64,000 bases of DNA from a virus: the IMG/VR virus record IMGVR_UViG_3300047300_000657, positions 1 through 64,000 of that record, one strand, 5' to 3'. The translations under genes and the position numbers were made by a program. Under the pieces are notes generated by a model. The model saw only the letters and a list, made by a program, of their open reading frames with translations, had not been told where the DNA came from and did no database searches. Below, in pieces: positions 7,538-13,369 of the stretch; the first letter of the stretch is position 1; each line of letters opens with the position of its first letter.

Positions 7538-7621
7538 CTAAAAAGAATCTAGGACCTCATCGATCCTGTCATCCAAATTAGGATAATGCTCTTTAGAGCA
7601 ATCCCCACAACTTTTACACAC
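7538..7621 (-). CDS. MCxxCGxC micropeptide, 27 residues (GTG start)
   Basis: GTG at 7619-7621 overlaps the TAG stop of the upstream gene (TAGTG); TAG stop at 7538-7540. The peptide is MCKSCGDCSKEHYPNLDDRI and seven more residues. The MCxxCG start is shared with the peptides at 7815-7961 and 8172-8276 and resembles the Ni-binding MCxxCGC start of hydrogenase maturation protein HypB. Very small, so support rests on overlap coupling and the repeated motif. Confidence 0.55.
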   Translation of the reverse strand: MCKSCGDCSKEHYPNLDDRIDEVLDSF

Positions 7622-7815
7622 TATACTTTTTTTCTGCCAGTTTTCTTTGGCGGACGTGGAGCATTTGAAGTTTCTCTACGAATACCATGTTTGTTGGTAT
7701 CAATTTTTATTCCAGATCTAAATCCATTTTGTTTTGGATTTTTTCTAGTTGCTTCACGACTTGTTACTGCGCCTGATGGTTGGCTTGGCAATGGTGCTGG
7801 TGTTCCGTCTGACAT
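7621..7815 (-). CDS. Small basic Pro-rich protein, 64 residues
   Basis: MSDGTPAPLPSQPSGAVTSR is followed by a Lys/Arg-rich body ending PPKKTGRKKV, predicted disordered. It starts in a TAATG overlap with the MCVECGC peptide and ends in a TAGTG overlap with the MCKSCGDC peptide, so all three are translated together. It could bind nucleic acid or be a peptide substrate; function unknown. Confidence 0.7.
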   Translation of the reverse strand: MSDGTPAPLPSQPSGAVTSREATRKNPKQNGFRSGIKIDTNKHGIRRETSNAPRPPKKTGRKKV

Positions 7816-7961
7816 TAGTCTGGATCTACCATTCCTTCCGCTGCCTCATGAGCTGCAGACTCTTCTGCTCTCTCATTCATACCATTAGAAACATCCATCA
7901 TGTTAATTGATGACATCCCCATCTGGCTTCCAACGCTTTCGCAACCGCATTCAACGCACAT
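7815..7961 (-). CDS. MCxxCGC micropeptide, 48 residues
   Basis: ATG at 7959-7961, TAA at 7815-7817. The peptide starts MCVECGCESVGSQMGMSSIN and has an acidic Ala-rich tail (EESAAHEAAEGMVDPD). With the N-terminal Met amine and three Cys (2, 5, 7) the first seven residues form the same metal-binding pattern as HypB. It begins two bases after the stop of the 53-residue Gly-rich peptide gene. Confidence 0.7.
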   Translation of the reverse strand: MCVECGCESVGSQMGMSSINMMDVSNGMNERAEESAAHEAAEGMVDPD

Positions 7962-7963
7962 AA

Positions 7964-8125
7964 TTACTTACCGCCGTTGCCTACGCCTGAACCATCTTGT
8001 GATGATTTATCTGCAGCAGGAAATGCTGACTTTGGAGCCTCAGTGTAATTTTCTGTAGCCCATGGTGATGATCCTGCTGGCTTTGCAGCTTCAAATCCTC
8101 CACCGTTTATACCGTTTGTTGTCAT
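7964..8125 (-). CDS. Gly/Ala-rich small protein, 53 residues
   Basis: ATG at 8123-8125 with AGGAGA at seven bases, TAA at 7964-7966. The sequence is low complexity: MTTNGINGGGFEAAKPAGSS followed by PWATENYTEAP and a GSGVGNGGK tail. It looks like an unstructured peptide and could be a modification substrate of the adjacent radical SAM enzyme, though nothing proves this. A TATAAT about 20 bases upstream of ATG marks a possible promoter. Confidence 0.65.
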   Translation of the reverse strand: MTTNGINGGGFEAAKPAGSSPWATENYTEAPKSAFPAADKSSQDGSGVGNGGK

Positions 8126-8171
8126 TTTTTTCTCCTATAGGTTTATATTATAAGCGGATCTAGAATACCGC

Positions 8172-8276
8172 TCACTCATCAATTATATCATTTAGTTGAT
8201 TAGAATCTGGCAAAGGCTCTTCTCTTGACTCGTTTCCAGGTCCGATATGGTCAGCACAACCGCATATCCAGCACAT
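8172..8276 (-). CDS. MCxxCGC micropeptide, 34 residues
   Basis: ATG at 8274-8276 overlaps the TAA stop of the radical SAM gene (TAATG); TGA at 8172-8174. Begins MCWICGCADHIGPGNESREE with an acidic tail. Same N-terminal MCxxCGC pattern as 7815-7961. Translational coupling to the radical SAM enzyme makes it the prime candidate substrate or partner. It may instead be a small metal-binding protein. Confidence 0.7.
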   Translation of the reverse strand: MCWICGCADHIGPGNESREEPLPDSNQLNDIIDE

Positions 8277-9265
8277 TATTCTCCCCAAATTGCAGCTGAG
8301 CATTTTGTACACATATTAGAATATGCTTCTTTGATGGCTTCCTGCCTCTTTTGTCCATTCCAAATTTCTTTTAATGTTTCTTTATTTGTATTACCAAACA
8401 CGGTTTCAAAATCAAAATCAGCACAACATATAAATAAATCTCCGTTTGGATTAACATGAATCCAATTTTCTGTTCTGCTTCTATAGCCTATACCGCCATT
8501 GCAGCCTATGACCCTGCTGCCCTTTGTTTTTAAATATTTATTAATAGCATTTGTTTGGCTAATAATGCCTACGTCTTCTAAATGTCCTGCCCTATCATAT
8601 AAATTATTTGCAGTCCAAGTCTTTAAGCCTGGGAATAATTTTTTAATTCTTTCATCTTCTTGCACCAAAGATCCAGTTTTATCATCCATGTCCATTTTGG
8701 GAGCATTTTCTAAAAGATCTAACCACCCTCCATTTTTTGTTAAAGAAGATTCGTTAACACCATTTATCATTAATACAATTTTTTCTGACTCTACAAAATC
8801 ATTTAGTTGTTCCATTGCATAGGAAACATTAGACACCATCTTATCAAACAGCTTCGGATTCATTTTAACATACTTTGCCCATGTATCCTTATCACCTGAT
8901 GGAATGTTTAACAATATTCCATGTATAACATCTTTATTCTTTACCATGATATCAACTTTAGATTTTGTTAAAGCTACGCCATTTGTTAGAATGTTTATTC
9001 TAAAATTATATTTTTTATATACATCAAACATTTTTTCAAAATTCTTATATAAAAGAACTTCGTTATAGTTTGCTGTATATATTAAGAATAAATTAGGATC
9101 AACAAAGTCTCCTTTGCCCTCATGCAACTGTTTTAAAATGTTATCTAGTTCGTCCAGGGGCATCTCTCTTCTGGCTGATTCTGGATTACCCTCATATGAA
9201 ACTGGACAAAACCAACAGCCAGCATTGCACAAGCCGTTGACATCTATCTGAACGCCTTTAATCAT
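8276..9265 (-). CDS. Radical SAM enzyme with SPASM-type C-terminal domain
   Basis: 329 residues. CNAGCWFC (Cys13, Cys17, Cys20) is the C-x3-C-x2-C site for the SAM-binding 4Fe-4S cluster. The C-terminal region has Cys255 (GCNGG), Cys280/281 (FICCADF) and C319-x2-C322 (NMCTKCSA), the ligand set of SPASM auxiliary clusters. NPNGDLFICC and ETLKEIWNG are characteristic of SPASM proteins. SPASM members often modify ribosomally made peptides. It is flanked by tiny Cys-rich peptides, one overlapping its stop. Substrate unknown. Confidence 0.88.
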   Translation of the reverse strand: MIKGVQIDVNGLCNAGCWFCPVSYEGNPESARREMPLDELDNILKQLHEGKGDFVDPNLFLIYTANYNEVLLYKNFEKMFDVYKKYNFRINILTNGVALTKSKVDIMVKNKDVIHGILLNIPSGDKDTWAKYVKMNPKLFDKMVSNVSYAMEQLNDFVESEKIVLMINGVNESSLTKNGGWLDLLENAPKMDMDDKTGSLVQEDERIKKLFPGLKTWTANNLYDRAGHLEDVGIISQTNAINKYLKTKGSRVIGCNGGIGYRSRTENWIHVNPNGDLFICCADFDFETVFGNTNKETLKEIWNGQKRQEAIKEAYSNMCTKCSAAIWGE

Positions 9266-9379
9266 TTATGCCCTACATTTATTATACCAACAATGATCGC
9301 ATACAAATTTTTGATCTGTTGTTGAAATCTTTGTTGCAATATTTTTGCAACCCTCTATCTCACAATTACTTTTTGACAT
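9266..9379 (-). CDS. Zinc-finger-like microprotein, 37 residues
   Basis: ATG at 9377-9379, TAA at 9266-9268, directly before the radical SAM ATG. MSKSNCEIEGCKNIATKIST then FVCDHCWYNKCRA gives Cys6, Cys11, Cys27, His29, Cys30. That pattern fits a small zinc-binding fold (AN1-like spacing). Coding is supported by exact end-to-end packing with both neighbours. Confidence 0.6.
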   Translation of the reverse strand: MSKSNCEIEGCKNIATKISTTDQKFVCDHCWYNKCRA

Positions 9380-9479
9380 TAATTTTCTTTCTTAATGTCC
9401 ACACTGGTATTGATGTTGGTGTATCTTGCAACTCATACCCAAGCATTTTTGAAATAAACTTTAGCAGTTTTATTCTCAT
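9366..9479 (-). CDS. Small basic protein, 37 residues
   Basis: ATG at 9477-9479 forms ATGA with the stop of the DUF2061 gene; TAA at 9366-9368. MRIKLLKFISKMLGYELQDT with a basic tail (RKKINVKK) resembles a short amphipathic helix. Family unknown; the evidence is coupling and packing only. Confidence 0.5.
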   Translation of the reverse strand: MRIKLLKFISKMLGYELQDTPTSIPVWTLRKKINVKK

Positions 9480-9697
9480 TTAATCTTAGAGCCAAACTTA
9501 TTCCAGGCTCTTTCATGTAAAAAGAAACCAAACATTTCACATAAGGTGTATATAATTGCAAATGATCCAGCGTACTCCCAATGAGCTTCGCCAGTAATTG
9601 CTTTTTCAAAAAAATAAACTAATGTTCCAACAAACAATATATGTACTGCTGGCCAAGTGATCGACTTGTATATGCTTTTTTTGCTGCTATCTGTCAT
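9476..9697 (-). CDS. DUF2061 small membrane protein
   Basis: 73 residues: KSIYKSITWPAVHILFVGTL, a TGEAHWEYAGSFA middle and FFLHERAWNKFG end match DUF2061 (K-S-x-T-W start, H-E-R-x-W end) with two membrane helices. Two more copies lie at 19691-20097. Function of the family is not known. ATGA overlaps couple it to both neighbours. Confidence 0.8.
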   Translation of the reverse strand: MTDSSKKSIYKSITWPAVHILFVGTLVYFFEKAITGEAHWEYAGSFAIIYTLCEMFGFFLHERAWNKFGSKIK

Positions 9698-9909: not shown

Positions 9910-10986
9910 TTACTTAAGTGTGGCTACCTTAGCCTTTGGATTGGCCTTGTTCCACTTTGCAGCAAGTGCATTAAATGCCTTCTTTACTGCAGCAAGAGCA
10001 GCAGCATTATCAGCGTTTGCCTTAGCGATAGCAGCATTAGCAGTTGCGAGATCAGCAATAGCCTTAGCGGTTTCCGCCTTTGACTTTGCTAGTTCTGCAT
10101 CAGCAAGAGCCTTTGCATCAGCAAGAGCCTTTGCGCCTGCAGCCTTCTCAGCAGCAAGTTGTGCTACAACGGTAGCAAGTTCTGCATTCTTAACAGAAAG
10201 TTCTGATGCAAGATCACGAACTGTAGCAGTCTTAACAACAACACCAAGTGGTGCTGAAAGACCAGTTACTGCAGTAGCAACTGTAGCAGTTGCAATAATG
10301 GTAACTGTACCAGATGCAGGAAGTGTTACATCCTGTGTCTTTGTACCCAAAGTTGCTGTAGCTGTGTCAGTTGTTAATGAGTATGTTGTTGAAGCAGTTG
10401 GTGTAACGTACTGAAGGCTAATTGATGCTCCGCCCTTAGCGTTTCCAAATACGTCATAACCAAGTACCTTGATTGTTGAAACAGTTCCAGCAGCCCCTGA
10501 TGTTGGAGCATCTAGAGCAATTGTATTAAGTGCTCCTGCTGTACCATTAAAATAGTAAACTGTTGTATTACCAGCAACCGTTACAGAAACTGTTCCTGCA
10601 GCAGTCGAAGTTGTAAATACATATAGATCAGCAGTGGTACCTGTACCTGTGCTGATTGATGCTGATGTTGAACCAGCTGATGCTGTTACTGGTGCTGCAA
10701 CTGTTGCAAGAGCAGTAACAATCTTACCGTTAGTTACGGAAGCAGTTACAACTGTTCCTGTATCTAAACCTGTAAGGGCAATCTTAAGAGCATCTGCAGA
10801 ATCTACAGAGTTATCTGCAGGAACTGGAAGTGCAATTGCAGTTGCTGCTGTTGTACCAGCAGTTGCAGGTGCTGAACCGCCAACCGTGAGGGTTGTTGAT
10901 ACTGCAGCACTTGCAGGTGTTGCAACAAGTGAACTCAAGGTAATGGCTGCAACCACACCAAGAGCGATTTTCTTAAATGACTTCAT
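9910..10986 (-). CDS. Secreted Ala/Thr-rich surface-type protein with C-terminal coiled coil
   Basis: 358 residues. A signal peptide (MKSFKKIALGVVAAITLSSL, cleavage likely after ATPASAA near residue 28) is followed by beta-rich Ala/Thr/Val repeats like bacterial Ig-type domains (about 30-245). An Ala/Lys coiled coil (about 250-340) and the tail KWNKANPKAKVATLK complete it. It resembles host envelope or S-layer-type proteins rather than virion proteins, suggesting capture from an actinomycete. AAGGAG precedes ATG. It ends at its own terminator and is thus monocistronic. It may alter the infected cell's surface; this is inference. Confidence 0.75.
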   Translation of the reverse strand: MKSFKKIALGVVAAITLSSLVATPASAAVSTTLTVGGSAPATAGTTAATAIALPVPADNSVDSADALKIALTGLDTGTVVTASVTNGKIVTALATVAAPVTASAGSTSASISTGTGTTADLYVFTTSTAAGTVSVTVAGNTTVYYFNGTAGALNTIALDAPTSGAAGTVSTIKVLGYDVFGNAKGGASISLQYVTPTASTTYSLTTDTATATLGTKTQDVTLPASGTVTIIATATVATAVTGLSAPLGVVVKTATVRDLASELSVKNAELATVVAQLAAEKAAGAKALADAKALADAELAKSKAETAKAIADLATANAAIAKANADNAAALAAVKKAFNALAAKWNKANPKAKVATLK

Positions 10987-12030: not shown

Positions 12031-12237
12031 ATTTCCTTTAAGTTCTTCTGCAGCATCATTAAAACGCTTCATAAAATTTTGAATAATGAACACAGTTGTT
12101 TCATGTGCATTTTTTGACATTGCGCTAAATGCTTGCTGATTTCTTTCAGCTTCTGGAAGAGCAGCGGACCACTTGTTGTATAGGTCTGTTGCTACTTCAA
12201 CAATTATTGCTTCTAGAACTGTTTGCTGATTATCCAT
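12013..12237 (-). CDS. Hypothetical helical 74-residue protein
   Basis: Begins MDNQQTVLEAIIVEVATDLY and is predicted all-helical with an acidic tail (KGNNDEQA). Starts inside the 3' end of the S8 protease gene (eight-base overlap), so probably co-translated. Unknown function. Confidence 0.65.
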   Translation of the reverse strand: MDNQQTVLEAIIVEVATDLYNKWSAALPEAERNQQAFSAMSKNAHETTVFIIQNFMKRFNDAAEELKGNNDEQA

Positions 12238-13369
12238 TTAATTTTGCCATCCATATCGCCTTAGTTGTTGCAAGTTTATCTGCTGCTGCTTTTACAGTAG
12301 CATCATATTCTGCTTGCGCTGCTGCAATTGCAGCATTTATTTCCGCTTGTAGGGCAGCCTTTGCTGCAGCATCTGCTGCAGCTTTTTGTGCTGCTAATTC
12401 TTCTGGAGTTGGTCCAGTTGGCGCAGTTGATGTAACTACTGGAGCAGGCCCACTCATAGCCTTATCTAAACTAATTAGCTTAGTAAATGTGCCCTGACGA
12501 CCACGTGTTGGTACTGCTGTTGATGACATCAAGTCTAGGATTTGTTTATGACCATACCCAAACTTAGACTTAATCTGAAGATAAATTGCTGCTGCAACCT
12601 GAGTAGCAGAAGAAGATCCAATTACATTCTTAACTACGTTACCTGGGCCAGCAACTGACCACTGCCCACGAGCAAAGAAGTCTAGCGTAGAATCATAATT
12701 TGAAGCGACTGCGATTTCTCCAATAGAGTCTGTGTGTCCAACAGAAACTGAATTTGTTAAACATCCTGGCCAATCTAGTCTCTGATAGTCTCTTCCATTT
12801 CCAGCTGGGAAAAATACTGGGATACCGTTTTGGTCTAAAGCATTGATCATATTGTATGTATTACTTTGATACTTAGGGCAATAATCTGTGCCGACAGCAC
12901 CTAGGATATGATGACCCTGAGACATTGTTACCGCCTGAATGTTGTACTTAGAAGCATTTTGATTAACCCATTGTAATGCAGTAGATACTGTAGGGTCTAC
13001 AGCAGTTGCAATTCTTGCACCAGTTTCAGTGCTTGGAATAATACGAATAAAAACAACATTAGCATTTGGGTTCTGCATTAAAAATGTAGATGTCATTTGT
13101 GTGCCGTGATCAAATCCATTAAGACTAATTAGATTTGCAGGCATACTTGCTGCACCAGGTCCTTCTTGAAATAAAGAACCATTTGGGCATGCACCTTTTT
13201 GCAAAATGCATACCTCTTGAATAATTTTTCCCTGAAATGCAGGAAGAGACGTATCAATTGCTGTATCAAGAATAGCAACTGTAGGAGTAGCAGAATCCGC
13301 CTTTGCTACTGTATATGATGGCACAACAAGTGCCACTAGAGTTATTAGTGTTGTTAGCTTTTTGTTCAT
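12230..13369 (-). CDS. Secreted subtilisin-like serine protease (S8)
   Basis: 379 residues with signal peptide (MNKKLTTLITLVALVVPSYT). Catalytic residues are in the S8 order: Asp35 in VAILDTAID, His88 in GFDHGTQ, oxyanion Asn191 in PAGNG, Ser253 in GSSSATQVAAA. After about residue 300 an Ala-rich coiled coil (EELAAQKAAADAAAKAAL) follows. Family members cleave proteins outside the cell. An exported protease is unusual in a phage; it could process surface proteins of host or neighbours, or act during lysis. TTGACA-16-TAGAAT sits six bases before ATG. Confidence 0.88.
   Translation of the reverse strand: MNKKLTTLITLVALVVPSYTVAKADSATPTVAILDTAIDTSLPAFQGKIIQEVCILQKGACPNGSLFQEGPGAASMPANLISLNGFDHGTQMTSTFLMQNPNANVVFIRIIPSTETGARIATAVDPTVSTALQWVNQNASKYNIQAVTMSQGHHILGAVGTDYCPKYQSNTYNMINALDQNGIPVFFPAGNGRDYQRLDWPGCLTNSVSVGHTDSIGEIAVASNYDSTLDFFARGQWSVAGPGNVVKNVIGSSSATQVAAAIYLQIKSKFGYGHKQILDLMSSTAVPTRGRQGTFTKLISLDKAMSGPAPVVTSTAPTGPTPEELAAQKAAADAAAKAALQAEINAAIAAAQAEYDATVKAAADKLATTKAIWMAKLNG

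Follow-up and report, generated by a model that had tools for sequence, protein, structure and literature searches.

A Radical SAM/SPASM Enzyme Gene Paired with an MCWxCGC Micropeptide Gene in a Likely Actinophage Lineage

A gene for a radical SAM/SPASM enzyme and a gene for a micropeptide starting with MCWxCGC are paired in a group of phages related to the DNA analyzed here, a stretch of 64,000 nt (the window) that is part of an IMG/VR virus record of 67,928 bp. The analysis separates a widespread, apparently undescribed class of HypB-like phage micropeptides from a radical SAM enzyme whose peptide partner is nearly obligate. We give a probability of roughly 0.45 to the reading that the enzyme and the MCWxCGC peptide constitute an accessory cassette, in which the peptide serves as a helper metallopeptide of a radical SAM tailoring enzyme. 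The micropeptides and the enzyme are relevant to how metals and Fe-S enzymes are managed by phages inside the cells they infect, and their size suits direct tests with a 15-residue synthetic peptide and one enzyme. A limited literature search found no published description of the peptide class or of the enzyme-peptide pair.

The closest relatives of the window phage's DNA polymerase (57–58% identity over the full length) and terminase (61–63%) are those of the Gilson/BillNye group of Streptomyces phages, within the Stanwilliamsviridae. As judged from these two proteins, an actinobacterial host is likely for the window phage, which is probably a freshwater phage. In Streptomyces phage Gilson, from the related lineage, no MCxxCG peptide was found in two stretches covering about 95 of 128 kb. 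The INPHARED phage records contained neither the enzyme nor the MCVECGC peptide described below, and gave one match for MCWICGC, which is at chance level. A scan of a genome collection for MCWxCGCA revealed no host or prophage copy; three matches in Bacteroidota and Pseudomonas were judged spurious.

The radical SAM/SPASM enzyme and its MCWxCGC partner

The genes listed in the initial annotation were all recovered at their positions on the minus strand, and the SPASM identity of the enzyme was confirmed with Pfam. The enzyme (329 aa; 8276..9265, minus strand) matches SPASM (PF13186, 1.4e-12) and Radical_SAM (PF04055, 5.1e-12). The CxxxCxxC motif of its radical SAM core (C13, C17, and C20) and the C-terminal auxiliary Fe-S cysteines (C255, C280, C281, C319, and C322) are all invariant in 44 relatives. 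The number of auxiliary cysteines suffices for about one auxiliary cluster, and thus the enzyme is regarded as twitch-like. In a structure model built from 44 sequences (pLDDT 91), the radical SAM core lies at the very start of the protein. A PDB fold search with this model placed BtrN first (TM by target 0.68), ahead of DesII, anSME, and SuiB; the full-length TM is about 0.5, a level at which sugar-acting and peptide-acting radical SAM enzymes are not separable. The PDB sequence search returned BtrN as the sole match. The weak NCBIfam matches included peptide maturases below the cut-off (rSAM_ACGX, 5.9e-6).

The initial annotation had noticed that one tiny gene overlaps the stop codon of the enzyme. 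It is the MCWICGC gene, encoding the MCWICGCADHIGPGN micropeptide (34 aa; 8172..8276, minus strand), and the overlap reads TAATG. Across relatives the peptide has 23–41 residues. M1, C2, W3, C5, G6, C7, A8, H10, and G12 are invariant, conservation is confined to residues 1–15 from the start Met, and the tail is variable and mostly acidic. Cys2, Cys5, and Cys7 behind a free N-terminus are present in all distinct MCW ORFs; these positions are fixed by the search patterns, but when orthologs were collected by way of the enzyme, no alternative form adjoined it either. In 15 of 23 distinct contexts an in-frame stop is met before any upstream start, and therefore the ATG immediately preceding TGY is the conserved start. 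A 46-aa ORF starting with GTG (8172–8312) was rejected as a mere extension. By analogy, the invariant block and the acidic tail would be compatible with metal binding at a free N-terminus.

The MCWxCGCAxxH pattern was found in 46 stretches among 2.9 million IMG/VR contigs, and every one of them has as a neighbor an enzyme sharing at least 60% identity with that of the window. Peptides of the MCxxCGC type beside SPASM genes in other phages, which the initial annotation had proposed to look for, thus exist for MCWxCGC. From the side of the enzyme, the search revealed 71 viral contigs and a profile-guided search 243, of which the best 80 were kept. The MCW peptide is present in 47 of 49 records with an enzyme at least 60% identical (the window included, one incomplete contig left out). 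No MCW-type peptide adjoins any enzyme at 51% identity or lower, among about 75 contigs including those from the best 80 of the 243. Homologues with the enzyme and no MCxxCG peptide nearby had been named in advance as evidence against a link; they occur at this distance, but not as a rule among close relatives.

The two exceptions look like secondary losses. In L023 a 39-nt deletion takes out MCWICGCADHVGL, and in L279 the MCW gene is gone; the enzyme is intact in both, and therefore the peptide is not strictly needed. In the enzyme tree, the peptide-bearing enzymes constitute one clade (support 0.92) with L023 and L279 scattered within, consistent with one gain and two losses of the peptide. 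The pair is also kept in the L020 group and in L027 and L028, where its two members are separated by the PLP gene. In the L020 group the cassette occupies another genome position than in the window, while the DNA polymerase is 80% and the terminase 76% identical. These counts are of incomplete contigs, several of them nearly identical, and the losses are few. Relatives at intermediate distance have a small phage protein nearby that resembles a zinc ribbon (MSICxACPEL...CPIGKW); it is unrelated to the MC peptides.

The core block of micropeptide genes

The three MCxxCG peptides are genes under strong purifying selection. For codons 2–12, pN/pS is 0.053 for the MCW peptide (24 distinct ORFs), 0.155 for the MCVEC peptide (68 ORFs), and 0.207 for the MCxxCGxCxxEH peptide (36 ORFs); the sequence pairs are not independent, and the values are lowered somewhat since the search patterns fix Cys. 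Synonymous change is near saturation in the first 12 codons of all three, independently of the patterns. Three short ORFs of the MC..CG type are observed in the window, against 0.03 expected from dinucleotide-matched random sequences. Low pN/pS and this excess together establish the micro-ORFs as genes. Their MC starts were read correctly in the initial annotation, with the correction that MCKSCGDC begins with GTG here.

The genes had been described as a single overlapping unit, which does not hold. About 46 bp separate the MCWICGC gene from the Gly-rich gene. This interval (8125–8172) carries an AT-rich stretch and the small inverted repeat AGCGG...CCGCT, which is conserved, recurs in L067 and L023, and may be a processing site, an attenuator, or a promoter. 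Beyond the gap, four genes are tightly packed on the minus strand: the Gly-rich peptide (53 aa, MTTNG...GNGGK; 7964..8125), the MCVECGC micropeptide MCVECGCESVGS (48 aa; 7815..7961), a basic Pro-rich protein (64 aa; 7621..7815), and the MCKSCGDC micropeptide MCKSCGDCSKEH (27 aa, GTG start; 7538..7621). The 2OG oxygenase and PLP enzyme genes follow.

This core block is not tied to the enzyme. Both MCVECGC and MCKSCGDC are conserved coding genes in other phages, the latter as the family MCxxCGxCxxEH...DD. MCxECGC peptides were found in at least 120 contigs, and the enzyme is present in 3 of 112 newly fetched stretches with them. Among whole records with MCxECGC peptides, several of 80–115 kb, the enzyme was found in 0 of 50 and any radical SAM domain in 0 of 49; the window and 14 control genomes were positive in the domain search. 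The basic gene is in 80 and the Gly-rich gene in 54 of 112 MCxECGC loci. Another short gene, for a zinc-ribbon-like Cys-rich protein of 37 aa (C-x4-C ... C-x2-C; 9266..9379, minus strand), lies just upstream of the enzyme; it occurs in 15 of the 112 loci, nearly all of them lacking the enzyme. The MCVECGC, MCKSCGDC, Gly-rich, and basic genes thus belong to a core block of the lineage that is present without a radical SAM gene. Given also the exclusivity of MCW, the cluster is to be seen as a mobile enzyme-peptide pair joined to the core block. The link between the enzyme and the small peptides suggested in the initial annotation stands for MCWxCGC and fails for the others, which are found without a radical SAM gene.

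Two micropeptide families were also noted. The one that includes MCKSCGDC, MC[KR]xCGxC[ST]KEHxxxIDD[AS][IV]D, is very uniform (27–30 aa, with Cys2, Cys5, Cys8, and His12) and independent of the enzyme; its members include L113 10737–10823, one in L280, and window 7538–7621. The other is a further MCxECGC type (L103, L121, L160, L204, and L212), MCKECGCG[LI]x[DN]KKDPGYGKG followed by Lys/Ala/Pro-rich tails. A DUF2061 membrane protein (window 9476–9697; PF09834, 2.6e-8) is a conserved neighbor of the cassette and recurs in roughly half of the MCxECGC loci. Upstream of the cluster, window 9910–10986 and 12230–13369 encode two proteins that start like signal peptides and are predicted to be secreted, a subtilase (PF00082, 8e-14) and a repeat-rich protein.

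Neighboring genes and the role of the pair

Neighbors were counted around 27 close and 30 distant enzyme loci. The 2OG-Fe(II) oxygenase (PF13640; 6864..7505, minus strand) is a recurrent enzyme neighbor, present near 22 of 27 close and 14 of 30 distant enzymes. The Cys/Met-metabolism PLP enzyme (PF01053; 5815..6867, minus strand) is optional, near 12 of the close enzymes and none of the 30 distant ones. That both could be further tailoring enzymes, as was suggested earlier, is therefore plausible, with the PLP enzyme as an optional member. The window also encodes a sulfotransferase-like protein (PF17784; 4352..4942, minus strand), and sulfotransferase-like genes lie near 22 of the 27 close relatives. 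Glycosyltransferases lie near 21 of 30 distant enzymes, a count resting partly on our reading of families #177 and #271, both without a Pfam match. A ferritin/Dps-like gene (PF00210, E 1e-4; e.g., L012 5514–5981) adjoins the cassette in 20 of 27 close relatives; the family has members in L005–L018 and L020–L028 and in none of the 30 distant loci, and none was recognized near the window cassette. In L020 and L024–L028, where the genome position is the alternative one, an IMP dehydrogenase-like gene and a TylF-type methyltransferase gene adjoin the cassette. From the BtrN fold match and the neighboring genes, the enzyme most likely performs radical dehydrogenation or a similar tailoring reaction on a small group, sugar-like or otherwise, with a peptide as a possible but less favored substrate.

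In the helper reading, freshwater actinobacterial phages would carry the enzyme and the MCWxCGC peptide as a small accessory cassette. Cys2, Cys5, and Cys7, with the N-terminal amine and/or His10, may coordinate a single transition metal ion, or else an Fe-S fragment, in a HypB-like manner, with Met1 either removed or retained. The peptide would not be an exported product; it would aid the enzyme by supplying metal or a cluster, by offering protection, or by transferring electrons, and the enzyme would modify a sugar or other small group of a component of the phage or its host. The remaining MCxxCGC peptides would be separate metallopeptides of the core block that reuse the same N-terminal motif.

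Alternatively, the MCW peptide could be the substrate of the SPASM enzyme, which would modify the Cys or Trp residues of this leaderless, RiPP-like or scaffold peptide. Peptides are common substrates of SPASM enzymes, the fold matches include SuiB and anSME, and the sub-threshold rSAM_ACGX match points the same way. The enzyme can be present alone but the peptide never is, an asymmetry expected of a substrate; it suits the helper and substrate readings alike. However, the conserved Cys block sits at the extreme N-terminus, no leader followed by a modified core is seen in the peptide, and the enzyme opens directly with the radical SAM core. RRE/PqqD (PF05402), fused or nearby, was found in 0 of 23 records with positive controls, and no exporter or peptidase was recognized among the tested cassette neighbors. 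RRE-free RiPP enzymes exist, and the absence of an RRE lowers this reading only in part. Sister peptides share the MCxxCGC start without a radical SAM enzyme, and no such peptide accompanies the distant enzymes, although their invariant residues are the same. The lack of an RRE and a leader, together with these sister peptides, places the helper role above the substrate role, which we consider rather unlikely, and above a coupling that is purely genetic. The phage-encoded peptide maturation proposed in the initial annotation is thus a possibility for MCWxCGC, weakened by the missing leader and RRE/PqqD and the top fold match to BtrN; for the peptides taken together, classical RiPP maturation lacks support, since they are leaderless and no RRE/PqqD was found.

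Purely genetic coupling, in which all MCxxCGC peptides are phage metal-binding micropeptides and MCW has no biochemical interaction with the enzyme, would explain why MCVECGC and MCxxCGxCxxEH occur widely where the enzyme is absent, and joint transfer is favored by tight packing and the TAATG overlap. It appears slightly less probable still: the pair persists despite PLP gene insertion and a different genome position (L020 group, L027/L028), MCW has its own invariant W3, A8, and H10, and its exclusivity is perfect in the 46 stretches. Physical clustering in the window is what speaks for one peptide-maturation pathway joining the enzyme, all small peptides, the 2OG oxygenase, and the PLP enzyme. 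Such a pathway is highly improbable and was rejected on distribution, given the 49 MCxECGC records devoid of radical SAM genes, the PLP gene missing from 15 of 27 close and 30 of 30 distant relatives, and the gap with its inverted repeat dividing the unit. These weights are a matter of judgment, with few losses and incomplete contigs behind them.

Comparison with known systems

E. coli HypB binds Ni with sub-picomolar affinity through Cys2, Cys5, Cys7, and the N-terminal amine (PMC7055735). The resemblance to the HypB N-terminus pointed out in the initial annotation is borne out at the level of the motif: M-C-x-x-C-G-C is exactly N-terminal in the phage peptide, with the same Cys2/Cys5/Cys7 pattern. 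Unlike HypB, the phage peptide is free-standing, has 23–41 aa with no Pfam match to a SIMIBI GTPase domain, and contains the additional invariant Trp3 and His10. The NCBIfam model HypB_prefix gives an E-value of 0.019, far below the cut-off in strength, and the size rules out that the peptide is a HypB protein.

The phage enzyme shares the radical SAM core and the C-terminal twitch/SPASM cysteines with BtrN, anSME, BlsE, and DesII. BtrN is an aminocyclitol dehydrogenase, and SuiB and anSME are peptide enzymes. The identity to BtrN is about 16% (TM 0.53), however, and the phage enzyme has its own set of invariant residues among 44 viral relatives. A SPASM enzyme beside a short Cys-containing peptide is also reminiscent of the RiPP systems PqqE/PqqA, SuiB/SuiA, and the SCIFF type, but the phage pair has no RRE, leader, or recognized exporter or peptidase, and its conserved block is N-terminal. 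We tentatively propose, a little less confidently than the helper role itself, that aquatic actinophages carry free-standing N-terminal CxxCGC metallopeptides with exchangeable tails, one of which may have turned into a dedicated partner or substrate, transferred together with a new clade of viral radical SAM enzymes.
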